From Rhizomucor pusillus (lineage: Eukaryota; Mucoromycota; Mucoromycetes; Mucorales; Lichtheimiaceae): DNA of 64,000 nt. Shown here one piece after another: positions 1 through 22,500 of this stretch. Every line of letters begins with the position of its first letter. Position 1 is the stretch's first letter. A program made the position numbers and the translations under genes. The stretch spans positions 30,781 through 94,780 of the forward strand of contig FWWN02000526.1 of NCBI GenBank assembly GCA_900175165.2, read 5' to 3'. The notes below the pieces were generated by a model. That model saw only the letters and a program-made list of their open reading frames with translations. It did not search any database and was not told the origin of the DNA.

Positions 1-3000
1 GATATTTTTAATCGCCAACTAACCCATCGTTTTGATTGTATAAGTGCCAAAAAGCTTTGAAATAGCGCGGATGCTTCGAGTGTGGACTTGGAGCCGATCA
101 GCACAACTTTGCTTTTGGCTCTTGTCAAGGCAACATTGATACGTCTCCAGTCTCTGAGAAGATCACCCGTCTACAACAAACTTTAGATGTACTTTCTCCA
201 AATATCCCAGGTCATATAGACTTACGTGGGCACCAGCGTTGCTACGAACAAGTGATATAAGAACGCACTCTTTATCACGACCTTGATATTTGTCGATAGT
301 TGCGATCTCCACATCTGGTCGGTTTCGAAGATACTGGGAGATCAGCCGCAACTGTGATCGATATACAGAAATAACTGCGAGTTCTTTCTGATCCAAACCA
401 CACATGAGCAGTGCATCTGCTAATTGACATAGTAAGTTGGCTTCAATGTCATTCTGGATAACATCCATGACACGTTCTTCTCTTGCAGGTATGCGGTCTG
501 TATCAATAAACACAACCTTCCGACTATTTCCAAGGACCAACGATTGAGACAGCTATTCATTTGGAGTATCTGCTCAAGAATCTCACCTTGGATCAATAAT
601 ATCAGCAATCCAACAATGGGAGCGCCAGTCGGTGTGGGCCCCATCTTCGTGGAATGTCTCAAGACCTTGTTGAATATTTGGTAGCTTAAGCATCCGTCTA
701 GCCACGGCGTGAGTCCCGCATTTAAGTTTTGAATCGTACACCAATATGTTTGATAGAGACATGATATCCTTGTTCATACGATACTGATATTCCAAATACG
801 CGACGGATTCTGGATGAGCCTCGGCGAGCAAAGAAAACAATGATTTGGAGAAACCACTCCGTCGGGCCTCTTCGTCGCGTACGACAGGCGGTAGTTGATA
901 CTGGTCGCCAACAAGTACAAAGACATCGGCGTATCTCAACGGACCGATACATGCTGGTAACGTGATTTGAGACGCTTCATCAACAATACAATAGTCAAAA
1001 CGACGTTTTTGGAATAGATTACTACAGATAACTCGGTCAATATGTCACGTTTTTTACCGTTACTTCGTTTAATCTTACTGGGTGATACCAAGACAAGTTG
1101 TGCCCACAACTTTTCTGCTATTATAGAATTGCTCGATCGCAGCTACGCTGTCCAGGTTTACATTATTGCTAGGTACACATTGGCGGAGACTAGGCATCAC
1201 CTTTTGAAAATGTTAGATTCGTTCTTTATACTTGGAAGCCGATAATCTTACCCTATCAGGATTTCCTAATCGCAGGACATCGATTCCACTTTTGTGTACC
1301 TTAGATAGGACGTTATCAAGAGCAGAGTGGGTATAAGCAGTCAATAGTACAGACTTGTTCTGGCGGACAAGTGCACAGATGATGGCTGCAGTCGTCATTG
1401 TTTTGCCTGTTCCTGGCATGCCTAGTATGAGGGTATAGTCTTGTGCTAGAATGATCATGGAATTGCTAAGTACATATATTCGTTTTCTTACAAACCAATA
1501 ACTGCTTACCACTGAAAACTTTCTCCATTGCATGTTGTTGGGCTGGATTGAGGTTATCTAGGGCACCGTCGGGTATCGAGAGGGAATTGTCAAATGCAGG
1601 CTTTTTCAAGTCCACGATTAATCTTCTGCGTTTTTCGTCGCCGCCATCTTCAGGTCGGTTCACTAGTGTCACCAGGTTCCTTCGCATAGTTGCCATGCCG
1701 CCCGCCAATTCATCCTGGTCTATGCGGTACAACATATCCTTTTCAGGCGTTGTTGAAAATACTTGATGGTTCATCAGGTCGAATTCAGATTTGCGCTCAG
1801 GCGCTCGCCGCAGCGGGCCAGTGAGGCTGACAGTAATGGAACGTCTGTCAAGATGTTTTACAAAACCCATGCCTAGATTGATATGACCTTTGACGCTTGA
1901 GACTATGATTGGATCTCCAATGGCTAGGTGAGACATGATGGGCTCTTCGTCAGAGCGTTGAAATCGATAAATATTTACATCCACTGTAGACACGAGCTTC
2001 ATGTTGTGCAGGCATTTTCCAGATTTTTCACGTAAGCTGCTATCTTGTCGCCAGATGTCTCTGCGGATATAATCAATGTCGTCTTCTTCCTTGTCAATCA
2101 AAGCTTGCCAGTCTCGGAAAAATTTTGCAGTAGTTTCGCTAATATGTTGTGTTTTTGCGTCGAACCAGCCGCCCAATCCGCTGGATGCAGCGTTTCCGCC
2201 TTCGACAGCCTTGTGAAATAGCATACATGCATCATTCTCAGTGCAATGTTGACAAGAATGCAAATTTTTCAACATTGTTGGAAGGTTTTCTCGATTTTGT
2301 AGAGCTGAGGCCAGTCTATTCCGTGCAATCAAGAGTCCTTTCAAATCGCTGCGTGCTGCTGGAATGAGGTAAAAGCTGTTTACTTTGGAGTAATAAAGAG
2401 CACCGGCAATGACACCAATATCGTATCGATCGCTCATAAGCAAAGTGTACAATATTGTTTGTGCGCGATGAGAGATGAATCTGCTTGCTCGACCTGTTTT
2501 CAGCTCCAATGGAATAGTAAACGTTTGTCGATTTGGTGCGAATTTGATTTCGATCGAAGCATCAATCATGCCTTTTAATCCATAGGTTGGACTCCATAAG
2601 TGTTCTTCGACATCCAATACTCGGCTCACGGCAACGGCTGTGCATCCTAAGGTTGAAGCTACGTCCGGACCAACATCGTTTGCCGGTTTTGCATGCGGTT
2701 TCGGTTTGGATCCAATGAATGTATCAGCAAATGCTTTGATACTTCCGATAACATGCTGTAAAATGTTCATTGCTGTATCCTCGTCCTGATCGATTGCAAA
2801 TAGTTGATCAAGTGAATGTTTAATAATGTCCCACATTTCCTTTTTAAGGGATTCGATACTAAAGTCTTGTGTCTGCATGGCGCGCTGAATAACACGATGG
2901 ATGATATCGCCGTGAACGAGCGCCTCGCTGTAATCGCTTACACTTTTGACCTTTTGCTGAAGTATTGACTTGCGCAAGCAAAAGAAGCTCTCAGCGACAG

Positions 3001-3996
3001 CAGTGCAAGATATAAGGTGGTCAGGATGCAAAATAATATATCCATGATCATTGTCGATAATATTGCTGAAGTGCGTTGCATCCGGCGCAAGAGGTATATG
3101 CACAATATCACCTAGAATATACAAATTGATACCTAGGGCTTTCCAAATACCATTTTATACGTAGCCCTTACCAACAACGACGTGAATTTGCATCCATTCG
3201 TCCCTCAAGCGTACATTGAATGGCTTGTGGTGTTGGTCCTCCAACAGATAGAGTATCTAAACAATGCACTTCAATATCAAGTCTACTTTTGCCCACGCCA
3301 ATATCCTGTTTCTTACTTTTTCACGCTGTTGAAATCCATGGTCGTCTATGTAGGTCTGCCCGCTAACATTCGCCACGATGTATCGTTTATATTTTGAGCT
3401 AGAATCTGGAGATGGCATTGCTTCATCTTGGCCGTATGAAATCTGCTCCAAGAATTCCATAGGTAAATCGTCGCCAAACATATCATCGTCTTCACCGTCA
3501 AATTCGTCGTTATTATCACCAGCTGTACCGGCGTTGCCATCCTGTGTTCTGTCGTCGCTCTGTTCGTTGATATTATGCATGATATAATCTTGTCCAGCTT
3601 GACCAGTTGTTGGCTTTGGGTCAGTTTGTACTTCGCCGATTGCAAGCGCCTCTTCCAAGTCTTCCACAGGGATATCATCAAACATGGCATCTGTGTCGCA
3701 AGACTGAAACATCATGTCCGCAGGAACTTCAGAGCATGTTATATCACCAACATTGCGCTCGATTTCCTGATTCATTTTCGCCAGGAAACGTTCCTGGATC
3801 TCTCTGGGTCTAATGACAGGTGTTTCAGTATCAGGACTTGCTGGTTCCTGAGTCAACATGAGTGGCATGACCTCCTCATCGACTGCATTGTGTAAGCATA
3901 ACCAGTTCGACCCGCATCTTTTAACCCAATTATACCTCTATATCTCTTCATGAAGCGCTCTGACGGTGAGCGGTAGGGGCCATAACGATCAGCCAT
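1..3996 (-). CDS. DNA2: DNA replication ATP-dependent helicase/nuclease Dna2 (C-terminus off the left edge)
   Basis: Dna2 trims long Okazaki-fragment flaps and resects broken ends in the nucleus. Inferred exons (minus): 3936-3996, 3317-3882, 3172-3256, 1510-3111, 1252-1445, 1079-1200, 587-1021, 226-523, 1-170; phases agree throughout and give about 1177 visible residues. An acidic, disordered N-terminus is followed by the RecB-like nuclease with Fe-S ligands (Cys in CTAVAES and the [10 protein letters not shown] cluster), then an SF1 helicase: Walker A GMPGTGKT near residue 780, VDEASQ (motif II), [23 protein letters not shown] and [13 protein letters not shown]. The start ATG at 3996 lies in a short first exon spliced to a long second one; a start at 3868 inside exon 2 is the alternative. 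The frame is open at base 1, so the end is missing. Introns are 51-64 nt. The identity is firm; the first exon is less sure. Confidence 0.95.
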
Positions 3997-4444: not shown

Positions 4445-5912
4445 TAAACAAGAATTCGAGCATCTCTTTCATCCTCATTCGACACGAGAAAACGAACGTC
4501 TCAATCATTACCGCCCTTCGCAATTGAGATCAAATGCGCCTATTCCTTCAGTACCATGCAAATGGTTCGAATATTCGACACCTGAAAGCAGAGAATGGTA
4601 TATTAAGTTCGAAAGTATTCGACGATTTGGAGGAAGACGAAAAAGCAGAGACGCGAAAGACAAGAAAAATATAAGGATCAAAAAACTTCAGTAAGTCAAA
4701 GTAATTCCTTACTAGAAGACTGGATAGTCCAAATAATACATTTTTGTACAGGTTATAGAAGCGATTGACCTCGGAGACGATGACTTGAACCAATGTACGG
4801 CGCAAAAGCAAACAGAGGTCGAACATATAGAATTACTATTTGATGTGATTAATCGAGGAATGTTGGCAGGTAATTGTTACTCGATCATCTATGATACTGT
4901 TTGCTGACTTAAGTTAGCTGACGTAGAGAAAGATCAAGTCGACGAATCTTCACAAGGGTCTAATATATTGCAAACGAATGTTGATGGACAAGCAAACGAT
5001 GAGCCCAGCATAACAAGTAACAGCGTTCAAGATCTAGATGTCGACGTGCTCGAGAGGATGGAAGGTAATAAGATCGTACCATGGAACTCCCATATACTAT
5101 ACTGTTGATAAGATACTGAACTGGAATCTTCTTGCAGATCGATCGAATGCCCTCACTGTCTCGGATCAATGAAGTTACCGCTACAAAAACTTATTGAAGA
5201 AGAGCTGAACAAGAAAAGAACGATGGATGCGGAATACGAACAAGGGAAAAGCAACGAATAAAGAAAGAAGCTCGTGATCAAGAATCGATTATAGAAAAGA
5301 TGCGGATCCAGAGGCCGATATCTCAGGAAGAGGAAAGGGATTTCTGCCGCATACATGCAATGTACCAGCGATGGATTCCTTTGGGTTAGACTCGAGGTTA
5401 TCCAAAAGAAATCGATTTCGAGAAGATACCTCAGCGTTTGCAATGCTTCAAGCCAAGATTGGAAAACATAATACAGAAAAGACGATCAACCAGGTATAGG
5501 CTTATATCCTTGCAAGCCCATGCAGAACTGAAGAGGAATGCCAATAAGCCTACGATGATGATTAATCGTTTCGAGAGACATCTGGTAAGTAGCTCGCAAG
5601 TCGCATTTATGTTGGTGCTTCAATCTCTTAAATTTTAATTAATTAATCAGTCTGGATATTACGGCATGCGTGGTTTATCAGTAATATATATAGCACTTGC
5701 TGGCATGTTTCTCTGTACAGAGGATCCGGTTCTCACTCATGCAGCTTCTAAGCCGCAGATGACTCCTACTATTTCTTCAAGAAGTCCTGGTTCCTGAGGC
5801 TGCTTGCCTTTTGATTCAAGAAGATTTAGAGCAGAGCAATGGACATTCAGTCGACATTGAGGAAGCGTATAGAGTTTTGGAAGAGAGTCGAGAATATGGA
5901 TCGTACACCCTG
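4445..5912 (+). pseudogene. RTC4-like domain protein, decayed
   Basis: Resembles the RTC4-like family (restriction of telomere capping protein 4 C-terminal domain), whose biochemical role is unclear. Readable exons: 4445-4690, 4752-4869, 4918-5064, 5113-about 5590 and 5651-about 5912, joined by good splice sites in matching phase. Diagnostic segments are a CPHC knuckle followed by a basic helix, then DFCRIHAMYQRWIP, GYPKEIDFEKIP, MMINRFERHL, SGYYGMRGL, and VLVPEAACLLIQEDL with a terminal SREYGSY. Breaks: a frameshift near 5233 (between the acidic helix and KQRIKKEARD), an in-frame TAG at 5387-5389 inside the core, and another frameshift near 5770. Several breaks in one gene, with intact genes elsewhere in the window, argue for real decay rather than sequencing error. 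The first exon is not identified. The family call is from memory of the motif order; no search was run. Confidence 0.65.
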
Positions 5913-6344
5913 CTAAATAGAAATTTTTTGTATGTTCTGACCCTTTTCCTTTCTAGAAAAGAAAAAGCAAAATAGTTTTTTTTATTGTCTGCATGTTCTG
6001 AACTGGCTGAATGGTACAACTTTAATTCTGAAGTGGCTGTCCGTAGACCTGCCGTTATTTTTTGAAGAATACATGCAGATTATTGCGGTAAAAATTCTTT
6101 ATCTTTGACCGAATGAACTCATATATTGGGCGCAGTACTTTGCGCGTATTTGAGCTGATCAGATTTGGTATGCTTACATTATGCAGATCAAGTGAATCAT
6201 TGTCCTCTTAAATCTTTCATTATGCAGAACGATGTGTCTCACAATGAAAACTCTGGGTAGGACAAGCGATGTAAAGGTCGTATTATATCAAATGTCGATA
6301 TTATGTACTCTCTTTCTAGTTTCTCAAGTTTTTCAACCCAACGC

Positions 6345-8300
6345 AATGGCACCAACACTACGCAGTGGCAAGCGATTACGGTCGCCAACACCTCCAGCTG
6401 CATCGACTAGCAGAACACCAAGACGAAGGCGCATGTCAGTCTCTGAGGAAACTTTGGAAGAGACAAGCGGTGAACCTACGGGTATAAGCGGTGAATCATC
6501 GGAAATATCTAGCCAGGCATCCTAAATGAGCGGTGAACCTATGCAGATCAGCCAACCCTCGGAGCAGGCACCAGAAACTGAGGAAGCAGCACAACCGGAA
6601 GCTCAGGAGGAAAATGACCTCGAAGATCCGGACGAAACCGACTATGAAACAGAAGACGGAGATGAAGAGAACATGGAATTAGAACTCGAAGAAGAGGAAG
6701 AAGAAGAAGATATTGATGAACAAGTCGTTGAAGATGTGGTTGCGCAGATAGAAGAGATTCAAGAACCCAGAGAACAAAACCGGCGAGCATTGAGTCGTCT
6801 CCTGGACGATCATGTGACCCAATGCGATACTTCCTTGGAGTGTTCACCGGTGACGGAATCAATCGCAGGAGCGGTGTAAATGGTCTGGGCTTCCGATCAA
6901 CAATGTTTATAGAACTGCATCTGCTTCTTCGACGCTATGGTCTCATAACACCAAGATTAAGGTAATGGTATAGACAGTCTATCATGCAATTTAACATGAT
7001 ATTAAATATCCTTTCCTCTACTGGAAGGCATGCCTGTAATATTAATGGCCCTTTGAATGTCTCGACTATAGATGAACCAGATGACTCCTCCCAGCAACGC
7101 GCCGCCATATTTTTCGGATACGTGATCACGCACTGGAAAAAATCTGTAAAGTGAAAGATTCTACTCCTGATCGAATCGCCAACTTCCTACCTGCAGACAA
7201 CCCTCAGGCACGGACTGATTTTCTCATACTTTTTGTGTTCGGCTTGCTAGTGAGCGATGGCCATGTCTCTTGGACGTATTGCAGTACGCCAGATAACGTA
7301 TGTGTTCGCTACGACGGTTTTCGGCTTGCAGCTCGAGATCGATATATCATGCCATGGCTACTGGATCGATTACGAGAGCAGGACTGTATGATACTGCATA
7401 TATACATTCGACGCGATGGATTGTCAAGGCTTAAGTAGGCACAACCCAAAAGAATAGCGATTTGCTGAGACACGGTCTCCAATTAATGGAGCAGCACGGC
7501 ATCCCTTTGGACGGGAAACTCCAGTTTCTCCGTTTCTCCGTTATCTCCTGCACAATGAACGTATTGTCACGGACACTGTTATGCAGCCCAAACGTTTTCG
7601 TTTCATCAATATCTGAGAGAAAACATTAATGATGATCTATCGTGCGTCATTGCCCAGTAAGTTACATGTTGGACTTGAACAGTCCAGGCAGGCAGGCAAA
7701 TATTAATACTTTATTCTTCCTGCGCCAGGGATTTTTATGAACTCAACCTGTCTTTGCTCAACAATTTACTGGAGTCTGTGGGATTTCCTAGACTTGAAAG
7801 TTCCTACGACTTTAACGTTAGGGGATTTATCGGCCGAGTCAATTCATTGGACCGCGCAAATGCCACAGAACCCCAGAGGCTTTTGATAGACTATATGGCA
7901 ACATGTCGGCAGCGTCGATCTGATCAAGAAGTTTTAGACTTTCGGTATCGACAGGTATGTGGTCACTAGATACATATAATGATTTGCGTATGTAATATAG
8001 CTAACCGCTCTGTTGATAAAAGCCATTTATCCATTGCCGACATTGCCCCCAAAGATTTTTCACCAAGCGTTTCAGATACAAGAACCACATGGGAGCTCAC
8101 CATGAGGTAAACTATCTTTGCTAAGGAAAAGATTTACAAGGATTTGCTACTATTTTTCATTAATAAATAAACAGATGCGCCCATTCGTTTGCAATGAAAA
8201 TGAATGTACCGAGGGTTTAGATATAAATCTCAATTGTTCACCCACAAGCAAGTTTTCATCGAATGGAAATAGTAAGAAACGCAAGCCTAATGGAAACTAA
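6345..8300 (+). pseudogene. LAGLIDADG endonuclease-like gene with C-terminal C2H2 zinc finger, decayed
   Basis: Begins MAPTLRSGKRLRSPTPP, followed by a long Ser/Glu-rich acidic stretch. Then come two LAGLIDADG-type blocks: FLGVFTGDG at 6831-6857 and FVFGLLVSDGHV at 7232-7267, each ending in the acidic residue expected for catalysis and each followed by a helix-rich segment (LHLLLRRYGLITPRL; MPWLLDRLREQD) as in intein or HO-type nucleases. Later exons (about 7730-7952, 8023-8106, 8175-8300) are joined by good splice sites and encode a zinc finger (CRHC ... HMGAHH), a second Cys pair and a basic tail ending at the TAA of 8300. Breaks: in-frame TAA 6523-6525, a frame change between about 6730 and 6830, and one near 7120. 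The stop is only 20 bp from the stop of a displaced PYC 3' end on the other strand. Two LAGLIDADG blocks plus a zinc finger is the domain order of HO; homology to HO itself is not shown. It might be partly rescued by unrecognised introns. Confidence 0.6.
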
Positions 8301-8320
8301 ACCGACTTTGTATGGATATT

Positions 8321-8577
8321 CTATACACCTTCCACAACTCTGGCGATTAGGTCACCAGATGGGAGGCTTCGCCTTTTTGGATAGCAATGTCGTGACTGGT
8401 ATATGAAACGTGTCTTTTGGGACACTTATCGCCGCGGCCAGTCGACAAGACAGGCAGACCTATGTAGTATTGGACATGATAGCTATAGACACACATCCAG
8501 GAGGTAATTTGATCTTCGTTTAGTCTCGATGATGCTTGTGCTCTTATAGTTTTGAGAACACCCTTATCTATGGACAA
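8321..8577 (-). pseudogene. Displaced, strongly decayed copy of the PYC 3' end (copy 3)
   Basis: On the minus strand the end reads SGDLIARVVEGV then a TAG at 8321-8323, matching the last residues of pyruvate carboxylase ([13 protein letters not shown]). One frameshift upstream lies an IQKGEAS segment equivalent to IQEGDSL, and further upstream GVLKTIRAQASSRL resembles [14 protein letters not shown]. On the plus strand the stretch beginning ggtcaccaga and ending ttggata matches copies 1 and 2 with substitutions. The biotin motif MKM is not recognisable. The order of similar blocks is that of the biotin-carrier domain, so this is best read as an older third copy. A fragment of another biotin protein is the alternative. 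Confidence 0.55.
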
Positions 8578-9287
8578 GACAAGAGATACTGAGCAAAATA
8601 TAAAAAAAGTTATTCGTCCTCCAGAGATGGATAAGCTATGTTGCGATGTTGGAGTACGCTGGAGTTAAAATGAAAGCGGAAGATAAACCTCTACGAGAAT
8701 CGCAGCGCCTTCTTTGTGGAGTTTTGTTTCCGTTTCAAACAAGTTACTCTCTCGAAGAACTTTGCATAAGCGTTCAAGCATGATAGCGTTATTCGATATG
8801 TCCACGGAAAACTGGGATATTTGCCAGTGGCTCGTTTCCATATTTTCTGACATGGAGAAGCACCGCCAACCAGCTTGACATATACAGCAGAGCAAAATCA
8901 TCACTCGGGTGAATTCGGTTATCTAGAAAGGGATTTCTCCAAAAGTACTCTGCACTGCCCTTGCTACATAGGATGCAGACTTGAATGTTGTTAAAGCTGG
9001 CTTTATATACTTGGTAATGATTGGATGCTTGTACTCGATTCCACGAACCAGATCCATGTCGATGTCCATCTTCTTTTCTTCGTGCCTATCTGGTTAAGAT
9101 CGTCTGGAAACCAAGTGAGTCGAGACGTGCATAGATGTGCCAAAACGCTCGATCTATGCGAAATTGAACTTGCATGAACGATGGTGCAACATCTCCTTTT
9201 TTAGGCTCGACCTAGTCTCGTAGCGTCGCAGAAAATGAATTTTATTCGATCTGTTTTGCATGTATGTGCCGAGATATATGTATATCA
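8578..9287. other. Spacer between PYC 3'-end copies 3 and 2, no intact gene
   Basis: About 710 bp. A minus-strand reading frame at 8665-8904 (79 codons, with a Cys-rich start CCICQAGWRC) is the longest open stretch, but I recognise no family in it and it has no convincing start context. If copies 2 and 3 mark successive insertions, this would be the remnant of the element between them. Nothing else can be supported. Confidence 0.35.
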
Positions 9288-9519
9288 TCATTTATTTTCC
9301 CAAAAGTATCTACATTATTTAAGCATCTTTTACAATTCTCGCGACAAGGTCACCAGAGGATAAGGAGTCACCTTCTTGGATAGGTACGTGCTCTACACGA
9401 CCGGCCACAGGTGCAGTCACTACGGTTTCCATCTTCATGACGCTCAATACACAGACGGGTTCGCCAGTCTTCAAGTGTGCGCCGGGCTTGGCACGGACTT
9501 CAATGACAACGCCAGACAT
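9288..9519 (-). pseudogene. Displaced copy of the PYC 3' end: biotin-carrier domain (copy 2)
   Basis: Minus-strand codons from ATG at 9519 to TAA at 9319-9321 encode 66 residues of the biotinyl domain, including VLSVMKMET (biotin lysine context) and VPIQEGDSL. The 201 bp align without gaps to 14061-14261 of the intact gene; my hand count is 26 mismatches (about 87% identity). Similarity continues for some 30 bp past the stop (ttatttt, then atctaca and atttaag) and ends abruptly upstream at ATGTCTGG, where the preceding bases are unrelated. Same orientation as PYC. The frame is still open, but only the last domain is present, so it cannot be a carboxylase. It sits about 4.5 kb downstream of PYC, beyond the HNH-type gene. 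Confidence 0.9.
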
Positions 9520-10948
9520 GCTCAGTTTTTCCCGCCTGTCTGGGGAAGGCAATGCAAGGCGAGGGCTGTGACGATTGACGCGATAGAAGCAGGATTACGA
9601 AAGGTCCTTTCAAAGTTATATGGGCACTAGTTATTCTAATTTTATTCCCTTGTTCTGGTTGCAAGCAATCATTTTTCAATCTAGTTCTATCATATCCATA
9701 TCACGTATAGCATAGTTTAGGGAAAGAACGTTCTTTCAAAGCTGTTAGCTAAATGCACTTGTCGCTCATATCCGCGATATCGTTTAATCTACTAAAGAGA
9801 TGTATAGTAGGCGTTATTCGTCGTTAAGCGCCAGCATTCCCTGTAATCAGTGATTTCGCTGCCAGAATTGTAAAAAACGCATACATAATTTCCATAAAAC
9901 CTTTTCTGCTCGATTAAGAACTTGTAACAAAATCACAAAGAGTGTATATAGCAAGTTTATACAAATAAAACTGGGAACACTTTGGTATACATCTATGATC
10001 CCTTAAAAGACTCTTGCATCAAAACTCTAAAGTTTTTGTTGTTCTTGACGCCCGATCGCTACCCTGTACACGCATGACAGCGTTGGTGAGATCTGTCTTG
10101 CTTGAATATGATGTCGCACCCTAACCCATTGCGTTACATGAAGACTATAGTTCTAACACCAATGACTCTCTCAGTATGAAAATCATTTCCTCCTATCGAA
10201 TCTCCAGCTTCGCAGAAATCTATATCATCCCTCAGCATAACATCAATATTCAGCTGTAGCTTTCCTAGAGGCATACCTCTCACCAGCAGGTCTTCATCTA
10301 ATTTCTTCCTTGTGGTGAGTAGGAAATTAGGCTTGCCTGCCAAGTTTCAGCAATATAGTCGGTCATCTTTCATTATAATGAACTGGTGGATATACTCCAC
10401 TTGAGTTGCTCAGTCGCTAAGTCATAACCAAGAACGTTCCACACTGAATCCTTGCTTTCATTCTTTCAGGCTAGTTATGTAGATCTACAAATTAATTTGG
10501 GTCAGTTCCGAGGTCATCAAATCATTTGATCTACAGTCTACCTAACCTTGATCGGTCAGACATGGGATGAGTTTGATTCCTGCATAAAAATGTGCCAGCT
10601 TAGCCAGAGGTGAACGTAAGCGAATTATACCACTAAAAGCCAGTCTAGAGCAAGCGTTTAGCCATTGCGCAAGTAAGCTAATTTTGATAGCATTCAAATC
10701 TACAGATATATAGCGATTGCAGTACATAGCGACTACTAGACGGATATTCGAGGGTTAACAACTAAGTGTACCAGATAAAAGATGCGCTTTAGTAGCTGAA
10801 AATGGAAAGTGTATGGTGTTTTCTTCAAAATATGATGATGGAATAACAGGTTTCGCGGAAAGTGGTATTGTGTGGCCCTTTTTTTTTTTCTTTTGTAAAA
10901 GCTGGAGATGCGCTGTACCTTCTTCCTTCCTTTTATCAATTCGCGTAA
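9520..10948. other. Non-coding stretch between PYC copy 2 and the HNH-type gene
   Basis: About 1.4 kb, AT-rich. Short frames only (for example minus 10134-10343), none with a recognisable motif. It should include the promoter of the rightward HNH-type gene. No repeat or RNA gene seen. Confidence 0.4.
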
Positions 10949-12783
10949 TGGACAGTGCAATGTCGTCTAACGCTGTTTCAGCACCGCAAGCGCAGAAGCA
11001 GGTAAATGAAGCTAATAGCGAGTATTGACGAAAGTATAGCTCACCCCGTGATAGAAAATAACCAAAAACATTCTATACTGAGGCGGATAACAAGAAGATA
11101 ATCGAAATGAATGCGCAACTGGCGAGTAAGCCAGGAAAATGGAAAAACATTTGCGACGCTGGGGGGTAGCCCGAAGGCGGTACGAAATCATGACCAGAAG
11201 TTGCAAAATAATATAAGATATCAAGTTGGAGAAGATGGGAAGCTGGTGTATGTAGCCGAAGAGCTATTGAGGAATCTTCCTCAACATCAAAGAAGAGAAA
11301 AGTCGTAAAGTCTGTAAGAAAAACAACAAACTGAGAGCGTCTATCAGTATACGCATAACCGACATATCTTTAGGGACAGTTACATGAGTACACAGGGGAA
11401 GATAGAATGCAGATAGCAAAGATGAAGGCAGCTGGTCTAACGTATGAAGAAATGGGCGAAAAGCTGAGCCGTACACCGGGTTCAATCAGAAGTTATTATC
11501 ACCGTGTCATGAAACCCGACCCAAAGTAGGCATTAGACAAGTTTGCAGACACAGAGGTGAACTCAGGTCGAACATCATAGGAAGGGATGAATTGACTGAA
11601 CGATACTTGGTGCTTAGCTTGCTGACATAAAAAATTCTGGACAGAAGCGTAGACGTGCTCTGTACTCGAATCTCAGCACTCAGAGACGCACCTGACAACT
11701 TTAAAATCTGTTATAACTGCCTCCAATGCCTGCCATTCACCAGCTTCACCGTAAAAGATGGAAAGAGGCAACGCTGCAGAGAAATGCAAAAAAGGGGTAA
11801 CAATAGCAACGAAAATGACCACTCAATTGATATTTGGCGATGATTTGACTAATAGTTTTTCTATATGGTGTAGTACGACACGAAAAAAAGAGGAGACGTA
11901 CCTGAAGTGTTGCAGCAGATGGCTTATGCGGCAAGACGTCCTGACCGAGAACGTGGTGATGAGTTTGCATCCATAGCAGATGTAACAGAGCTAGTACTGA
12001 AGGCGTATGAACGATTGCAAGCAGATGAAAGAAGATGTGTGTACTGCCGACGGCAAGTGGTCCTGAAAACAAACAATTGGAGTGGATGCCAGGCTTGGCT
12101 AGACCACATGTACCCGGACCGTCCAACACACGACGAGCAACAGCATCTGCATATTATCTGCAGATTCTGTAACCAGTAGGTCAATCGTAATCCAGTCTCC
12201 TTTGCTTTCAGCCAGTAGTAGGATATGCTGTACTGAAACAGAAATGCTATAGAGCCAAGCACGATGGAACTCCAGAGGAATTGAGCAATTCCTCAGGGAC
12301 ATCCAGACGCCGCCAATATTAGAGGGAGTTGGACAGCTCAGCGAGGAGGACAAAAAAGCTCTTAGAGTGAATTGGAAAGCACTTAAATTCAGCGATACCA
12401 AACATCATGCTCAGCAGGCAGAAAGGCATGGTCAAACGGTGAGTCACTATTGAAAAGAAGTATTTAGCTCAAAGCATACTAAACATACATACATATATCT
12501 ATATAGATAATCGGTACCACGGCATCGTTCGAGGAATATTGGAAAGTGCCATGGAAAACGGTCTTACTGACAAATACACCCAGTCACGAGGAGCGTGGGT
12601 GCCTGGCAACAAGTATCACCTTTTTTCCTTCAATCGATTGAAGGGTGTTGCGAACAATGCGCGATGTGTACACTCAGTTGACAACCTGGAAGTAATGCTT
12701 TTACCGCTAAATTACGCTTTGGCTGACATGGACAAGAAAGAACTAGAAGAATGGTTACTTGCAATCAAAACAAGAAATGACTA
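10949..12783 (+). pseudogene. Myb-like plus HNH endonuclease-like gene, decayed
   Basis: Exon 1 starts MDSAMSSNAVSAPQ. A first Myb/SANT-like unit follows (FYTEADNKKIIEMN ... WKNICDA, then GGSPKAVRNHDQKL), a basic SKKRKV stretch, and a second helix-turn-helix-like unit (AGLTYEEMGEKL ... PGSIRSYYHRV). After an intron at 11526-11644 comes a Cys-rich treble-clef-like unit CYNCLQC ... RQRC, then an HNH-type core: CVYC at 12036-12047, LDHMYPD, and IICRFCNQ near 12177. The last exon runs from about 12508 to the TAG at 12781-12783. Frame changes are needed in the GGGGGG run near 11162, near 11265, and near 12280 (between AKHDGTPEEL and FLRDIQ). Splice sites between intact blocks agree in phase, so this was recently a spliced gene. 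It is convergent with PYC. Nuclease activity is inferred from the motif only. Confidence 0.6.
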
Positions 12784-14060
12784 GTAAAGTAAATCTAGTA
12801 TGCGCATTGCGACCCTGTAACGAACCCGTCACAGTTGTTCTGCTATCAAATTAACCATCGAGGCACTCTCCTTGCTTACCTTAGCCAGTGAGGGTAGACT
12901 TTAGATGCATTATACTCGGCTGTCCTAGCGATGATGATATCTTTTGAAGATGCATTTGCCTTGTCTATAACATGCAGCGCAAGACGGGTTTCCATGGATG
13001 ATGCTGCATCCCTAGCTATAGGACAGAAGAACCATCGAGACCAAAGCAGGTCAAAGCATTCTTGGTTATGTATTTTCCGCTAACTGATCATCGCCGAATT
13101 TTTGACTGACTTTTTGGGCAAAAGACGACCGATCATTGGGCAAATGCCAGCCACGAGTGTACTGTACGTACAAGAACCAAATTCAGAAGCCAGGGAGGAG
13201 CTAACCAACAACCAATGCTCGGCCTTTAAAGCCTTTCTTTTATTGCTGGCTCACGAGTATTGAACTGACCAATGATGTTGGCTTCTTTCAAAGCGTAAGT
13301 TCAAGCCGTCGGCTATAGCAGTTGGAAAAGCTAGAAATTTGTAGACAACACCAGTCATTTGACAGCCGAGAACTAACCTCTGATGTCTGCGCTTCTGCTG
13401 TACTGGATTTGATGTCGTCTTATAATGTTCAGCTACACTCTTTCCGGAAACTGATGTCGCATCTTCTAAAATTTTAAAATACAATTTATACAGAAAAACG
13501 ACATCTCAATACGACATTAATTCTTGGAAAAAGTGTACCTCTTGCTGAGCAAGGAAGTCGCACAGATCTATGCATGAATGATGGTGTGACACAAGCTCGG
13601 AAGCTGACAGTTTTCTTTTGGGCTCCCACCTATTCGGCATTATTACAGAGGCTGCGTGCCGTGTCGCACTGCAAATAGGAATTTAGTCTTTGCGATCGTC
13701 TTCTGTCTACAAAAAATCATTAGACGATTTTGGATGACACTTTTTAAGGTGTAGTCATATACAATATAATGAATGTGTGGCGATGAAAAATTGCAAATAT
13801 TCTCCGGAGTTTTGATTGGACCATGCGAGAAAGACACCTACAAGGAAGATTGGAAGGTCCCATATGTTTGTGAATAAAGTGCCCTGAATAAGGACGGCAA
13901 CGTTTGAATACACGTTGACGTGATAAAGCCTGTCACCGATATAATGTTATCTGTGCTGTTCTCGAACATTGCATTTTTTCATGGACTTTTCAGTCGAAAC
14001 AGAACTGTGCAGTATTATGTTCTATTTTCACTTATTTTTTCAGAAAGGTATCTACAATAT
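12784..14060. other. Region between the HNH-type gene and PYC, no intact gene
   Basis: About 1.3 kb holding the PYC 3' UTR at its right end and unassigned minus-strand frames (13251-13484, 13643-13837) without recognised motifs. The bases just left of the PYC stop resemble those left of copy 2, so the duplicated unit includes the start of the 3' UTR. Confidence 0.4.
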
Positions 14061-17000
14061 TTAAGCGTCTTTGACTAGACGCGCTACCAAGTCACCAGAA
14101 GACAGAGAGTCTCCTTCCTGGATTGGTACGTGCTCTACACGACCGGCCACAGGTGCAGTCACTACAGTTTCCATCTTCATGGCGCTCAATACACAGACAG
14201 GGTCACCAGCCTTCAAGTGTGCGCCGGGCTTGGCACGGACTTCGATAACGACACCAGACATGGGTGCAGGAACGTCGCCTGGGTTCGAGAGATTCGCCTT
14301 CTCGCGGCTGATATGCTCAACCGCGGCGTTCTTGTCGACAATACCGACAACACGTGCTTCACCGTTCAATTCAAAGTAGACATCGCGCTTGCCAGTACCG
14401 TTCATAGGTCCGACAGCCAGCAACTTGATGATAAGAGTCTTGCCCTCTTCGATCTCAACATGGAATTCTTCACCGAGTTCAGGCTTGGCCAAGAAGTAGC
14501 GGGTAGGGACAACAGACAAGTCACCGTACTGTGCAACCATGTCGCGGTACTCTGCAAACACCTTGGGGTACAAGGCAGCAGACAAGACGTCGTAGTCGGT
14601 GATGTTGTCGTATTTCTCTTGAAGCTCCTCCTTGAGTTTGGCAAGGTCGAGAGGAGGCAAAGAGGCACCGGGACGGCCGTCGATGCGAGGAAGATCACGG
14701 ACGATGTGGGAACGCAAAGGTTCAGGGAATCCTCCAACGGGCTGGCCAAGGTAACCCTGGAAGAATTCGACGACAGAGGTAGGGAAGGAAAGAGTGGAAG
14801 CACGTTCAATGACATCCTTGCCGCTCAAGTTGTTGGATACCATGAACTGGGCTAAATCACCGACAACCTTGCTTGATGGAGTCACCTTGACAATATCGCC
14901 ACAGAGAATATTGGCTTCAGCGTACGCCTTCTTGATCTTAATCCACTCAGAGCCAAGGCCCAACTGTTGTGCTTGGAACATGAGGTTGGTGTACTATTGT
15001 AAAGAAGTTAAATTGGTTAGATCCCTCTGCTTGAATACGATCTTTTGCAGCATTGTATACGCGCCTGGCCACCGGGCATTTCGTGCAAGTAAACTCCAGA
15101 GTCTGCAGCCTTGACGTTAGCCTCGAAGCAAGAGTACAACATGCGGCATTGCTCCCAGTACGCATTGATAGCTTGGATATCTTCCATGCGGATACCAGTA
15201 CCGAGGTTGGTCTGTTCCAAACCGGCGACGATAGCGCCCATGGCAGGCTGGGAGGTCATACCGGACATGGAGTCGATGGCAGCGTCGACAACATCTGCGC
15301 CTGCAGCGGCGGCAGCCATCATGGAAGCAACACCGGTACCAGCGGTGTCGTGAGTGTGAACGTGGATGGGCAAGTCAGGGAACTTTTGACGGATGGTGCC
15401 GATCAAGAGCTTGGCAGCTTCGGGTTTCAAGAGACCAGCCATATCCTTGATGCCCAAAATGTGGATACCTTCGTTGACGAGTTCCTGGGTAAGGTTGACA
15501 TAGTAGTTGATGTCGTACTTTGTCTTCTCGGGGTTGCAGACATCACCAGTGTAGCAGATGGTAGCCTCAACAACACCACCAGCCTTCTTGACAGCATCGA
15601 TACCAAGGCGCATGTTCTCGACATAGTTGAGCGAGTCAAAGATACGGAAGACATCCATACCAGCCTTGACAGCCTTCTCGCAAAAGTCGTAGACGACATT
15701 GTCAGGGTAGGAGGTGTAACCGACAGCGTTGGCACCACGGAGCAACATTTGGAAGGGGATGTTGGGAACAGCCTTGCGAAGCTTGATGAGACGCTCCCAA
15801 GGATCTTCGTACAAGAAACGCATGGCGACGTCAAAGGTAGCACCACCCCAGCATTCAAGCGAGAAGGCGTTGGAAAGGGCATGGGCAGTGGCAGGGGCAA
15901 CGCGAAGGAGATCTGGGATATGGCAGTTAGCAAATCATCGGCAAATAAATAAAAATGATTGATTTTCTCCGGGCTTATCCTACTTACCAGTAGTACGAAC
16001 ACGAGTAGCGAGCAAACTCTGGTGAGCGTCTCTCCAGGTGGTATCCATGATCAAGGTACCAGGATAGGCACGGACAGCCTTGGCAAAGGCCTCAGGACCT
16101 TGTTCAACCAAGATTTTACGCCAGCCATCAGTGGGAGCAACGGAGATATCGACAATTTCGCCGCGAGCATTCTGCAAGACAGGAAGTTCGATTTCGTGCT
16201 TGAAGGATGGTTCGCCAATCTGGCCCTTGATCTGGGAGCCGTTGACAACAACGTCACCGAGATAGCCCAAAAGACGCTGAGCACGGTTCTGGTATTGAAC
16301 AAGACGGAAGAGATCGGGGGTGTCGTCGATGAAAGTAGTCCAGCAGTTGCCATGGATGAAAGTGTCGTGGGTTAGCAAACGCTGCAAGAAGGGAATGTTG
16401 GTCTTGACACCACGGATACGGAATTCAACGAGAGCACGAACGATCTTGCGACGAGCGACTTCGTAGGTGGAGCCAGAGCAAGTGACCTTGACAAGCAAAG
16501 AGTCGTAGTGAGGAGTGATGATAGCTCCAGCGTAACCAGCACCACCGTCGAGACGGACACCATTGCCACCAGATGAGCGGTAAACTTCAATTTTACCAGT
16601 GTCAGGTTGGAAGTTCTTTTCAGGATCTTCAGTGGTGACACGGCACTGGATAGCAAATCCACGCTGACGGATGCGTTGCTGGGTCAAACCGAGCTGAGGA
16701 AGCAAGGCACCAGCAGCGACCTGGATCTGAGCAGCGACAATATCGATACCAGTGATTTCTTCAGTGATGGTATGCTCGACCTGGATACGGGGGTTGATTT
16801 CGATAAAGTAGTAGCGTCCCTGGTTGTCAACCAAGAATTCGGCGGTACCGGCGTTCTTGTACTTGACGGCCTTTGCGATCTTGACAGCATCGTTGAGGAT
16901 GGCTTCACGGACGGTGTTGTCCAAGTTCTTTGCGGGCGCAATTTCGACGACCTTCTGGTGTCTACGTTGCACAGAGCAGTCGCGTTCAAACAGATGGACG

Positions 17001-17953
17001 ACGTTACCGGCACGATCGGCCAAAAGCTGAACTTCAATGTGGCGTGGTTTATCCAAGAAACGTTCAATAAAGACGGTGCCGTCACCGAATGCAGACAAGG
17101 CCTCGGACTTCGCACGGTTGAATGCGTCCTCGAGGGAAGCTTCGTCGCGGACTACACGCATACCGCGACCACCACCGCCCATAGCGGCCTTGATAATGAT
17201 GGGGAATCCATATTCTTGAATAAATGCCTTGGCTTCAGAGAACTCGCTGACGGGACCAGGAGTACCGGGAACAACAGGGACACCGCATTCCATGGCTGTT
17301 GTCATATGCGCACAGAGGGATCAGCAAAAAATTTCCCATAGGGACCAGACCTTATCTCTATTTTTCTGTTGCACTTACCGATTTGACGAGCCTTTGTCTT
17401 GTCACCCAAGCTCTCAATGACATCGGGGGAAGGACCAATAAAGGTGATACCAGCAGCCTCGACCTTGCGAGCAAACTCTGCATTTTCGGAAAGGAAACCA
17501 TAACCAGGGTGGATCATGGATACGCCTCGTTCCTTGGCAATGCGAACAATCTCATCTTGTGCTAGGTAGGCGCCGACCGGGGTGAACTGACCGATCTTAC
17601 CAATTTGATAGGACTCATCGGCCTGCAGAACGTGATGTCAGCAAATACACATCAGATTTACCGTAGAAATGTATATATACCTTGTATCTGTGCATAGATA
17701 ACCGATCTTCGTAAGAGAAGATGGCGACTGTCCTCATGGAAAGTTCGTGTGCTGTGCGGCAAACACGGATGGCGATTTCCTAACAGAGAAGATTTTCGTG
17801 TTTCAGTCCGAGAGATCCTGGAAGAAAACCACCACCGTTCCCCCCTCTCTTGTTGAGACGTACACCACGGTTGACGACCATGAGCTTGCGGAGGTTGCCC
17901 ATGACCTCGCTGTTTCTTCGGATAGTTTCGACGGAATGTTCGCGGTGTGGCAT
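14061..17953 (-). CDS. PYC: Pyruvate carboxylase
   Basis: Biotin enzyme that carboxylates pyruvate to oxaloacetate, the anaplerotic and gluconeogenic step; cytosolic in most fungi, and no obvious transit peptide is visible. Exons (minus): 17864-17953, 17681-17779, 17379-17622, 15988-17295, 15065-15912, 14061-14993, giving 1173 residues (yeast enzyme about 1180). Order: biotin carboxylase ([51 protein letters not shown]), carboxyltransferase ([40 protein letters not shown]), and C-terminal biotin carrier with VLSAMKMET, biotin lysine near residue 1136. The start [11 protein letters not shown] precedes the first conserved motif (VVNRGEIAIR). Odd points: the last intron (14994-15064) appears to use a GC donor (CAG/GCGCGT), required by the phase of GGQ/YTNLMFQ; two displaced copies of the last 66 codons lie downstream. 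Confidence 0.97.
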
Positions 17954-19578
17954 ATTGTGTCAGTGTTGTTGTATTACGTTGGTAAGCCAGTTACTCTAAT
18001 GCAAAAATGAAGATATGAAAACAGAGTTTGTAAGATAAGACGAAAGGAAAAAAAAGAAAACAAAAAGAATGCCTCCTTGCCCCCATCCAGGATATAAAGG
18101 ACACGACCGGTAGAGGCCAGTGGTTGATTTCATATGATGACATATGGAACGGTGGATGATGGCCATTATGCAAAACAAGACACCCCGTCCTACTCCGGGA
18201 AATTACGCGTAGTTCACGCATGACAACGTTGAGCTGATAGAGGATAGGGGGAAAGAGGCAAAGGCAACGAGCAGAGGACGGGCAGCGTACCTGGGAGAAC
18301 CGGGGAATTGCTTGAGAAAAGATGAGAAGATCTCGAAAAACGACTGAAAAAATATAAAAGAGATTCAGATTGTTCATCCACGATATTGAAACGCCGCTTT
18401 ATCATTCACCCCCGACAAGCCACGTTTCCAAGGATTCCTGTTGTATCGGCCAATGGAAATTCACCCCGCTGCTGGGCTGCCCAACCATTTCCTGCATCAA
18501 TTTTTTGTGCTCTGATAAGGCCAGTGTAAACCGATCTACCGAAAATTTTCCAGTTTGCTCCTGCGAGATCATCGATAAGTAAACTGGAAAACAAAATCAA
18601 AATGAATTAAAAAGATCAATCTTGTCAAACATTGAACTTCTGCATCGTGACTCACCACTCAATCCACCCAGCAGATTATTCCCGACCCCTTTGGTCCGGG
18701 TTCTGCCTCAAGAGGAAGGAGCAACACCTCAAGAGGAAAGAGGAAAAAAATTGTTTGACTCGCACGTATGAAAGCACAAGCACTCGAGCCCAAACGCACA
18801 TGTGTTTCCGGCGAATTTCCGAAATAAAGACAATTGTCAACTCATAAACTTTGGTAACCGTGGGAAAGTAGTTGCTTTTTTCCTACTATGCTCCCACTCT
18901 CTCGGTCCTGCCGTGCGTGCATGCATGGATGCGCGCGCACTTTTTTCTTTTCTTTTGTGCCTGGATAAGTCGCTTAAACCTTGATGCGCTTCAATCGGCG
19001 TTCTTTTTTCTTCTTTTCGGATTTTCCTATATTGGCAACTTGACCCAGATATCTGCACCGACAAAAGGACAACAAACTAATTGGGGTTGCATAGTACGCG
19101 GTGGAGAAAGGGAATATCGACATGTACGCGAGAGAAATGACGTGCATGGGGGCGATGCAAGTGTTCAGTGTTGCAGCACGCTTGTTGAAATTTAAGGTTT
19201 CAGTCTGACAGAGACCAAAAGGCAAATTCACATGAAATTAAATCTTTTAGTTAGCAGCCGAGTAACTTATCCTTTTTTCTTCTCCAAACGATTGGAAAAT
19301 TAAAAATCATGGCTCTATGTACAAGCTTGCTTTACATGGCTGGAGAAGACCCCAAAAGCATATAGAAAAAGTAGGCATCGTTACGTTTGTGAGACCTGCT
19401 GATAGGCATGGTGGCTTTCGCGTTTCAGACTAATAGAACATCCCCGTCACAATGCATGTCAAGTTTTTCCTTGGCAAGTGTACATGTGACCACCTGATCG
19501 ACAAAGTGTATTCTTATATATAAACACACACGAGAGCAAAAAGACAATGTGGGATTATTATTGTAAATTATTTCTTTA
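17954..19578. promoter_or_regulatory. PYC upstream region and 3' flank of the KAR9/GAS2 gene
   Basis: About 1.6 kb without a coding gene. The right half of the PYC leader (minus strand) contains CCCAG/GTACGC near 18290 and an AG near 17995, which could bound a 5' UTR intron; this is a guess from motifs. Pyrimidine-rich tracts occur near 18900-19020. I see no RNA gene. Confidence 0.35.
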
Positions 19579-22500
19579 TTAATGAAGTATACCAAAATGT
19601 AACAAGAAAATCTCCAAATCCTGCCAGCCACCACCGATGCGAACAAGCACCTTGTGCCGATCTGCCGTTGCTGAAGCCGAAGAGGACGACGTTGATGCAG
19701 CAGACCGCCTCGAGTCGCGACCCGTGTAGCTCATCAGTTTGCATGTATACAGTTTCTTGCTGCCGCCCACAGACGGGCTCAGCTCATTTCCAAAGAAATA
19801 GTACCTGCCTGTCCCAGGCGGTCCTTTCTGGCAACGTATAGCTATCGGGCTCGAGTTTACTATTCGTGCTACGTGCACATCCAGGGGATCTTTGAGGTCG
19901 GGTTTGTAGGGCGGATGTTCTGCTGCTGGAGCAGCGGGAGTTTTCCTGGATGGTGGCCAGGGTTCATCATCGTAATAATTATCTTCATCTTCCTCGATAG
20001 AACTAAAACTACTACGTCGCAGTTGCGGTGAAGGGGTGCGTGCATGGATGGGTCGGTGGCGGAACATCGGGGAGGCGGTACGATGATGTTGCATTAAGGC
20101 GGGCATGGATTGCTTCTTGCGTAGTGATGGTCGTGAAGAAGGAGAGTTGGTGCTCGGGGATGGCGGGGAGCTATCTGGCACAACCATAAAGTTATTCTAA
20201 TAATGTTCATCATTGTTTTTGATATGGTAATACTTGCAGCATGTGAGCAGCAGCCGTCGCTGCCTGCGGTGATCGATGTTGCATCGATGATCGTGGCCGT
20301 GGAACAAGTCCGGGCGAAGCAACTCGTCCGCCTGATGAAGGTGTCTTGGGTCGTGGAATAAGGGATGGCGTACCTGCGCGCCGAACAGGCGACATGGCTC
20401 TTTCGCGGTTAGGATAATTTACTGGTAATGGTACAAGCGAATCACCGTGATGATGCCGGTCCATACTGCTTTTCGGTCTCGTAAGTGTTGTGGAACGAAG
20501 CCCTTGACTAGTTGGATTAGGTGTTTTGGAGCGAGGTGGCAGATCTCGTTTTGCTTCCTCAGCACTTTGCTGCGCTTGTCTGCGTGCAAGCGTGCTTTTC
20601 GTCGGTTTCATCCAAGACGCTCTATCATCCTTTGCTGGCTCGTTGACGCTCGGAACCATACTCTTCCGCCGTGTCGTTGTCGTTGCGGTTGTTGCTTTCT
20701 CCTCTGATTTCCACAAGGGATCCAGTGTCGAGAAATCTGACCTTTCGGTTTTCACGCTAGAGTTCCAGGCAGGTCGCTCTGGTGTCTTGGACTTCCTTTG
20801 CGTCGTCATTGCCGTCGTCGGCCGCGGCAACGACGCGCTCGAAACACTCGAGGTATCAGAGGAGCTTGATCTTAGCAAGCTGCCAAAGGAAAGCGGACTG
20901 ACTGTCCTCTGTAGTCGGCCATATGTGCCGCCGCTACTTGGTGACCCTGCCTGGTTCATGGATCGCCACATTTCACGTCCGCCGCCTGCACTGTTTGGTG
21001 TAGCACTGCGTCCTCTGCGAGTTTCGTCATACATTCCCATCGGACTACCCGTTCTAGAATAAACAGGCCGAGTGACCGAGTTTGACAGCGGGCTCTTTGA
21101 CCGTCCCAGCGGCGCGATTGGATCAAAGTAGTCGTGGCTGGACGGTTCAGGGCTTCTGTATCGATTATCCTTCCAGCTTCCTACACTGCGATCGCTTCTG
21201 TCGCTGAGTCGAGACCATGCAGGACTGATCGGCCGGTCGGATTGTCCGACCAACATCCTCTCTGTGTCTGGCAAGTGCCGCAGCCTTAAATCATCCATCT
21301 CTGCTTTCAACGATGCCCACCGTTGCAGCATGCTCTGGTGCCGCCGAAGCGTCGAATTGTCGCGACCCACGCGTGCAGAAATGCCGCTGCCGAGCATCGC
21401 AAGCATCCGATCAATGGATGGAGTGTAGTACTTGTACTTTGCTTCAAAGTTCTTTTCAACTGATCTGAACTTGTGATGATCAACGGGAGGTTGCTGAGGA
21501 TTGTTGTATCCTGCAGATCCAGTCGAGGAACTCGGCGACAGGGAAACATTTGTCCCGTACACTTTCGTTGCATTCCTCAGAGCACTCTTTGGAAGCATCT
21601 CGCTAGACTGTTGTTGCTGCATGGTTGTTCCTGTCGAAGATGAAGATGATGCCTGCCAATCTCTTATCTGGTTAATGACAGCGTAGCACTGAGCCGAGGT
21701 CTTTTCGAGACCATCCATCATGACATCCACTTGATCCGCGACTTGCTTGAAGACCGTGAGCCAGCGGTCTTCCTTGAGACCGTATTTCAAGTCGTCGATT
21801 TCTGATCGTAGACTTTCCCATCGCCCTTGCACCATCGAGTGCTTCCTCTTCAAGGTTCCATGCTTATCTTGGGGCGGGTCATCTGACATCATGCGTGCAT
21901 AAATCCGCTCAATTTCATTGAATACAGGCTCGACCCTCTGATCAATCTCTACAAGCAAGTCCTCTTCACTTTGCTGGGACCGGGTATCACTTGAAAGAGA
22001 CAAGGACGGGGAAGGCATAGTCTCGGTGCTAGACAGCGAGCTTGCTGTGGATGCCAAGGCCGCTTGTTTGCGTTCGTGGTACTGGAATATGAGAAGCGAG
22101 ACATCGTCTATCTGCAGCAAGATGCGCTCCATGGCTGATGCCAGCTGCCGCTCTTCGTTTGCAAGTTCAATCTGCTTCTTGACCGACGCAACAAAGTGCT
22201 GCAATCCGGACCACTCGGATTGGATCTTGGCCATTGCCATTTTGGCCGCCATCTTCCGTTGCTGCGTTTTGCCACCGTTGGTTTCATCATCCAAAAAGTC
22301 ATCATCGTCGTCCTCGTCCCCGCTTTCGTCAATGATTTCTCCAACTTGCATAAACATGTACAAGATCGGCTGCAGCTTTTCCAAAGCAGCATCCAACTCG
22401 GTCGTGTCCATGGGAATATTCTCATTGTCCTTGACATTTTTCTCCAGCGTGTAAACTGCAACATGCGCTGTACCTAGCCAAGCTCCAAGTTTTTCTGTCA

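Follow-up and report, generated by a model that had tools for sequence, protein, structure and literature searches.

Two described systems come closest to an array that lies downstream of a pyruvate carboxylase gene, PYC1, in a 64,000-nt stretch of Rhizomucor pusillus DNA (hereafter the window; part of contig C121 in an assembly of 24.45 Mb and 353 contigs). A WHO element, as described, consists of a nuclease gene and a gene tail that resists that nuclease; the 3' end of FBA1 is replaced, and older tails and nuclease genes are pushed outwards (PMC7282813). The TdFBA1-S and TdFBA1-R tails of T. delbrueckii are 85% identical, with gene-conversion tracts running from the cut towards the stop codon; among the WHO genes, some run antisense to FBA1 and others are distant from it, and the family is described as narrowly distributed among budding yeasts (PMC7282813). 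The second system is mitochondrial. In the mORFs of Glomus, a foreign C-terminus, an endonuclease open reading frame (ORF) and the displaced native C-terminus follow one another in atp6, atp9, cox2 and nad3; Allomyces atp6, Rhizopus atp9 and Mortierella cox2 are given the same arrangement, and the native C-terminus of atp6 has kept its protein sequence while its DNA has changed (PMC3630166).

Comparison with known systems

We consider it likely that the region downstream of PYC1 consists of stacked homing elements of a WHO-like kind that replace the tail of a nuclear gene. The array comprises a resident PYC tail (copy 1), two displaced tails (copies 2 and 3), and decayed nuclease-like genes of two kinds, HNH-A and LAG. 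Measured against the WHO elements of Torulaspora and Lachancea (PMC7282813), it shares their nuclear location and a nuclease gene downstream of a full-length gene of central metabolism. It also shares displaced fragments of the host-gene 3' end that lie downstream of the intact gene and are interspersed with nuclease genes, and alternative tails that are unusually divergent (~85-87% identical, here within one genome). Nuclease pseudogenes, an antisense nuclease gene (here HNH-A) and solitary family members elsewhere in the genome are further points in common.

The PYC1 array is set apart from WHO elements because its host gene and its nuclease type differ. The host is PYC rather than FBA1, and the best-supported nuclease is of the HNH/endonuclease VII (EndoVII) type with a helix-turn-helix (HTH)/Myb-like part, rather than an intein-derived LAGLIDADG enzyme. 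Unlike the CxxC (GATA-like) finger of the WHO proteins, the finger of LAG is C2H2-like, and LAG gives no match to the Hom_end profile; the nuclease genes at the PYC locus also appear, by eye, to contain introns, unlike those of WHO. The order of copy 1, HNH-A and copy 2 parallels the inserted C-terminus, endonuclease and native C-terminus of the mORFs, copy 2 being the presumed native tail. Unlike the mORFs, which are mitochondrial and carry LAGLIDADG or GIY-YIG nucleases, the PYC array is nuclear and stacked, and it combines an HNH gene with a LAGLIDADG-like one. Its nuclear location is indicated by a G+C content (GC) of 45% in the window, against 23-31% on contig C294, which is regarded as mitochondrial because it is AT-rich and rich in LAGLIDADG frames, and by its neighbors, PYC and DNA2. 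The array is probably a new variant of WHO/mORF-type homing elements, with a new host gene and an HNH nuclease.

Tail copies of PYC1

The resident gene is intact at its 3' end, as the initial annotation held. Its stop codon occupies 14061-14063 on the reverse strand, and a further ORF reaches 17637 (PYC1 as examined, 14061-17637, - strand), with the 5' end of the gene lying beyond the part traced. ORFs inside 14064-17320 match Pfam PYC_OADA, Biotin_lipoyl, HMGL-like and Biotin_carb_C, and the PYC_OADA and biotin-lipoyl domains reach the end of PYC1. The 3' end and the start of the 3' untranslated region (UTR) make up copy 1 (14006-14262, - strand), which was delimited by sequence comparison with copy 2. 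Copy 1 and the paralogue PYC2 encode the same last 66 residues, and copy 1 would be the tail delivered by the newest element.

Copy 2 (9265-9520, - strand) is a displaced PYC 3' end with UTR, truncated at its 5' side at C|ATG of the codons AP-MSGVV. Its coding part, 9319-9519, consists of 66 open codons and the native stop, and its ORF matches Pfam Biotin_lipoyl (8e-17). The earlier description of this copy as the last 66 codons and the start of the UTR at 87% identity is accurate: 9295-9520 is 86.7% identical to 14037-14262 over 226 bp, ungapped and in the same orientation (E = 1.8e-73). With gaps allowed, 9265-9520 and 14006-14262 are 84.6% identical. Used as a DNA query against the whole genome, the 225-bp tail found three places: PYC1, copy 2 and PYC2.

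Copy 3 is an older displaced PYC 3' end of which the last part alone is recognizable (8322-8388, - strand; nhmmer E = 3.6e-5). It had initially been drawn from 8321 to 8577; the stretch at 8322-8388 is real, and from 8388 towards 8577 the alignment is no better than with random DNA. The local score of copy 3 against copy 2 is 63, compared with a maximum of 38 among 1000 dinucleotide shuffles. Unrelated real stretches of the window score at most 40, or 44 at a possible inverted piece. Against copy 1 the score is 30, which 46 of 1000 shuffles reach and which is not significant. This outermost tail is the most decayed of the tails.

Two further stretches lie near copies 2 and 3. At 9836-9891 (+ strand), beside the inverted HNH relic described below, the PYC tail is matched weakly and in inverted orientation (E = 0.019, score 44); this piece may belong to an older unit that is inverted. 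Between copies 2 and 3, a 142-codon frame with one internal stop (8668-9093, - strand) gave no useful match and no second copy in the genome search; it may be a remnant of copy 2's lost element. A 60-bp portion of it (~8885-8948) also occurs on contigs C243 and C126.

Divergence of the tail copies

Of 201 nucleotides, 26 differ between copies 1 and 2, and 22 codons are changed, 18 synonymously and 4 non-synonymously (dN 0.042, dS 0.57). Under a neutral simulation of 26 random changes, the mean was 16 amino acid differences and the minimum in 20,000 was 7, against the four observed. This balance fits the replacement idea of the initial annotation, which had pointed to synonymous and non-synonymous differences as informative. 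When the changes are polarized by PYC2, copy 1 has six, none of them protein-altering, and copy 2 has 14 clear changes (20 counting six ambiguous sites), of which four alter the protein; all four fall at sites where PYC1 and PYC2 agree. Neutral decay in situ on the copy-2 branch has P = 0.00045-0.00195 with 14 changes, and with 20 it was matched in 0 of 20,000 simulations. Because amino acid changes are so few relative to the neutral expectation, copies 1 and 2 appear to have diverged mostly as working gene ends under purifying selection, and a little after the displacement of copy 2. A local duplicate would be expected to carry neutral changes, whereas those observed in copy 2 are mostly synonymous.

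The affinity of copy 3 bears on the same question. Copies 1 and 2 disagree in 16 of the columns aligned with copy 3; in 10 of these copy 3 sides with copy 2, in six with neither and in none with copy 1. In a tree of the three copies with the paralogue PYC2 as outgroup, (c2,c3)|(c1,PYC2) is preferred, and the approximately unbiased (AU) test gives p values of 0.032 and 0.0066 for the alternatives. Serial duplication from the resident gene would place copy 3 as the outgroup; the tree instead joins copies 2 and 3. Together, the signature of purifying selection and the tree favor replacement of the resident tail over its repeated duplication in place.

Third-position differences between copies 1 and 2 are unevenly spread, with 8 in 45 codons followed by 12 in 22 (max-chi-square p = 0.026; 0.45 for the control, copy 1 against PYC2). 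This clustering away from the presumed cut is suggestive of conversion of the cut-proximal part.

Nuclease-like genes of the array

HNH-A (10948-12784, + strand) is a decayed gene for an HTH/Myb-like and EndoVII-type HNH nuclease, situated between copies 1 and 2 and delimited by six-frame translation, own-genome search and profiles. Its coding blocks lie at ~11065-11306, 11371-11526, 11676-11810, 11874-12179, 12245-12440 and 12507-12784; the introns were placed by eye, the first exon is uncertain, and the frame is broken at at least two places. The exon-joined protein matches phrog_1035 (endonuclease VII) with E = 4.5e-9 and several HNH phrogs with E values from 2e-4 to 0.04. In Pfam, sigma-70 region 4 (0.007), Myb_DNA-bind_6 (0.01) and HNH (0.98) all fall below cut-off, and the core exon has no match in NCBIfam. 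The HNH half of the initial assignment to an HNH/Myb nuclease is thereby supported through phrog_1035, and the Myb half stays below the Pfam cut-off. The initial annotation had named a failure of both nuclease ORFs to match any endonuclease family as counting against it; HNH-A does match one. The reverse search, with phrog_1035 against the six-frame translation of the genome, found nothing.

Residues C57, D76, H77, C95, C98 and N99 are invariant across four aligned HNH sequences; the first Cys is Arg in one database cluster, P0001. In EndoVII-type HNH nucleases, C-x2-C, D-H and C-x2-C-N are the catalytic and zinc residues, and HNH-A resembles phrog_1035 in this C-x2-C ... D-H ... C-x2-C-N arrangement as well as in its profile match. 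It differs from the EndoVII type in its HTH/Myb-like part and its apparent introns.

Single queries with the nucleases against a database of 5.8 billion proteins gave no relative at E = 1e-3 among 4222 and 2396 candidates. An alignment query of the same database gave four short clusters, P0001-P0004. The first three come from public records (source code lgn); their identity to HNH-A exons is 94-98%, with 4, 3 and 6 differing residues; in P0001 one of the four differences is the start residue, and a Cys of the C-x2-C pair is lost. P0004 occurs letter for letter in contig C59. Close variants of HNH-A exons thus exist in other public records, and the Cys loss in P0001 appears from its sequence to be decay elsewhere too. 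No relative of the HNH family was confirmed in the viral and prokaryotic contigs scanned.

HNH-B (9620-9797, - strand), decayed and inverted, is what remains of the final exon of a gene of the same family; it was found by its match to 12628-12807. The two are 66% identical over 187 columns, with E = 6e-5 in the whole-window comparison and E = 4e-7 when the query is restricted to 9500-9950; the score is 59, whereas 1000 shuffles reach at most 39 and 240 other windows at most 35. Other relics of the HNH family lie on contigs C59, C206 and C177, with weak ones on C19 (E = 0.0018) and C281 (E = 0.029).

The relic at C59:8754-9464 is convergent with an ABC-transporter gene and lies within ~200 bp of its 3' end, a PYC-like geometry without tail copies. 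Fragments of the ABC-transporter tail were sought beside it and rejected, as the sole match was the query's own overlap; C59 carries two full-length tandem ABC genes. An inverted 0.25-kb repeat on C19 was likewise rejected as a tail copy, being an internal exon-like match between two paralogous genes around the relic, which look P450-like by eye.

LAG (6816-8300, + strand) is a decayed gene that lies beyond copy 3. It holds two LAGLIDADG-like motifs, FLGVFTGDG at 6831 and VFGLLVSDG at 7235, and a C2H2-like finger near 8033 (HCRHCPQRFFTKRFRYKNHMGAHH). At least two frame changes are present, and the two motifs stand in different frames of the broken gene. An acidic ORF upstream (6526-6879) may belong to LAG. 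In a six-frame scan of 144 kb (the window and four other regions), a LAGLIDADG 9-mer pattern had two matches in 287,980 codon positions, both in LAG, 404 bp apart and on the same strand. The finger has a weak match to Pfam zf-C2H2_4 (E = 0.087). Searches with LAG against PDB sequences matched no endonuclease, and no second copy turned up in the genome search. In outline, the combination of LAGLIDADG motifs and a zinc finger resembles the layout of the HO endonuclease; LAG differs from HO and the VDE intein (as described in PMC7282813) in finger type and locus, and no intein splicing domain is evident in it.

A LAGLIDADG_3 match elsewhere in the genome was set aside: it lies on contig C294, which looks mitochondrial. 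There, C294:2147-6225 is AT-rich (GC 23-31%) and holds several LAGLIDADG reading frames that are probably intronic.

Proposed mechanism and alternative explanations

Under tail replacement, each element would consist of a nuclease gene and a cleavage-resistant copy of the PYC 3' end. The nuclease would cut in or close to the AP|MSGVV codons of a PYC allele that is sensitive to it, repair off the element-bearing allele would install the element's PYC tail and nuclease gene, and the old tail would be shoved outwards and then decay. At least two rounds would have taken place, with unrelated nuclease families, an HNH (EndoVII-type) element being the latest and a LAGLIDADG-type element older. Cleavage, homing and resistance, like the order of events, we infer by analogy with the described elements.

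The nuclease genes stand between or beside the tails, as the replacement model predicts. The stronger decay of the outermost tail and the occurrence of close HNH-A exon variants in other public records also speak for it. The paralogous locus adds to this. At PYC1, ~10.1 kb, array included, separate the gene from the presumed first ORF of DNA2. At PYC2, on contig C2, the frame stops near 443730 and the next ORF ends near 443403, ~330 bp off, and there is no array; we count this difference for tail replacement.

Several observations weigh against a stack of homing elements. HNH-B is inverted, strongly decayed and closer to PYC than LAG is, and so misfits a simple stack; both HNH-A and LAG are broken. 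LAG matches no endonuclease family in Pfam, NCBIfam or PHROGs, LAGLIDADG_3 and Hom_end included, and no nuclease relic is recognizable between copies 2 and 3. A scan of the 64 kb found no further tail copies, and none beyond LAG. Duplicated host 3' ends were found at none of the five other HNH-relic loci (C59, C206, C177 and the weak C19 and C281). The tree draws on 75 columns aligned to copy 2, with four informative sites for the preferred topology and one against, and its outgroup is a paralogue. Set against the initial annotation, the WHO-like reading retains the synonymous excess, the grouping of copy 3 with copy 2 and one nuclease profile, and is weakened by a copy 3 of ~70 nt and a LAG gene without a profile. 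The LAGLIDADG/zinc-finger gene reported beyond copy 3 keeps its two motifs and C2H2-like finger, without an endonuclease profile, and the other 3'-fragment arrays suggested there as a check did not turn up at the five HNH-relic loci or at PYC2.

Of the alternatives, a break-repair patchwork fares best and is still unlikely. By this account a fragile PYC 3' end captured pieces during end joining, and the nucleases are bystanders in an intergenic region that is tolerant and carries much mobile DNA. The MITE-like repeat, dispersed repeat and inverted HNH relic in the interval would suit such a history, as would HNH relics elsewhere that lack tail copies, but it leaves unexplained both the divergence of copies 1 and 2 under purifying selection and the grouping of copy 3 with copy 2, and it requires chance to bring two nuclease families to one site. 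An ordinary series of segmental duplications of the resident tail, independent of the nucleases, is very improbable: it predicts neutral decay of copy 2 (P <=0.002) and copy 3 as the outgroup to copies 1 and 2 (AU p = 0.032), and is already disfavored on both counts, even if tail-only copies at one locus and in one orientation are what it would produce. That copy 2 is functional, either as an independent ORF of 66 codons for a biotinyl domain or as an alternative final exon, hardly merits credence, since its four amino acid changes all lie on its own branch, at sites shared by PYC1 and PYC2, a sign of relaxed constraint, and copy 3 and the nucleases would be left unexplained, although its ATG start, native stop and Biotin_lipoyl match (8e-17) are in its favor and function would account for the open frame and the few amino acid changes.

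Neighboring genes, paralogue and repeats

The enlarged intergenic region is bordered on the left by the next host gene, DNA2 (163-3937, - strand), for which ORFs within 163-3154 match Pfam Dna2 and AAA_11/AAA_12. The ORF at 3260-3937 has no Pfam match and was assigned as the DNA2 N-terminus on position and strand. The genes of the window look intron-rich to the eye. ARAGORN and Rfam scans returned nothing.

PYC2 occupies C2:443730-449931, and short blastn matches run beyond the gene into the neighborhood of PYC1 (window 17852-21964). These matches past the gene end suggest that a segmental or whole-genome duplication may have given rise to the pair. The ORF adjoining PYC2 is FHA-RING-like by eye.

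The spacer between HNH-A and copy 1 (12785-14005, no strand assigned) contains a repeat resembling a miniature inverted-repeat transposable element (MITE) at 13434-13538, and among the best 40 matches this repeat alone was matched elsewhere. It is ~105 bp long with inverted ends (ACACTYTTTCC..., by eye) and occurs at at least 41 places including itself, 75-85% identical; a blastn self-comparison also places it at window 47485-47588. It had been considered as a part common to the HNH locus on C206, and was rejected as such because it is this MITE-like repeat. The repeat controls were regions examined for other reasons.

On the far side of the array, the left limit initially set at 4445 was too wide, as 4728-6009 is a dispersed repeat. 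Its copy at C77:6419-8162 is 87-88% identical in two pieces, with ~0.47 kb extra in C77. That copy adjoins an ORF recognized by eye as Tc1-type transposase-like.

Significance

If the stack of tail-replacing elements proposed for PYC1 is real, we know of no earlier nuclear case outside budding yeasts, and of none before it with an HNH nuclease. No PYC homing element was apparent, among the matches listed, in the open-licence PubMed Central literature on homing endonucleases, WHO elements, atp6-type elements and nuclear HNH elements, and no open-licence paper in that collection on homing by HNH endonucleases in Mucoromycota was found.

A broader proposal can be offered tentatively, with somewhat more doubt than belief: tail-replacing homing may be a general nuclear lifestyle that is not bound to one nuclease. 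Families of the HNH/EndoVII-Myb and LAGLIDADG-C2H2 types would then have independently colonized the same PYC site, the C-terminus of this central metabolic enzyme being repeatedly re-imported from diverged donors.

If the tail-replacement reading of PYC1 is true, it adds a second, apparently independent case that involves a different host gene and a different class of nuclease, and tail replacement would then be a convergent strategy. It would account for chimeric evolution of essential genes and bear on the origin of HO-like endonucleases. The PYC1 locus would also be a natural instance of homing elements that stack up and displace one another, in an order still legible in their fossils.

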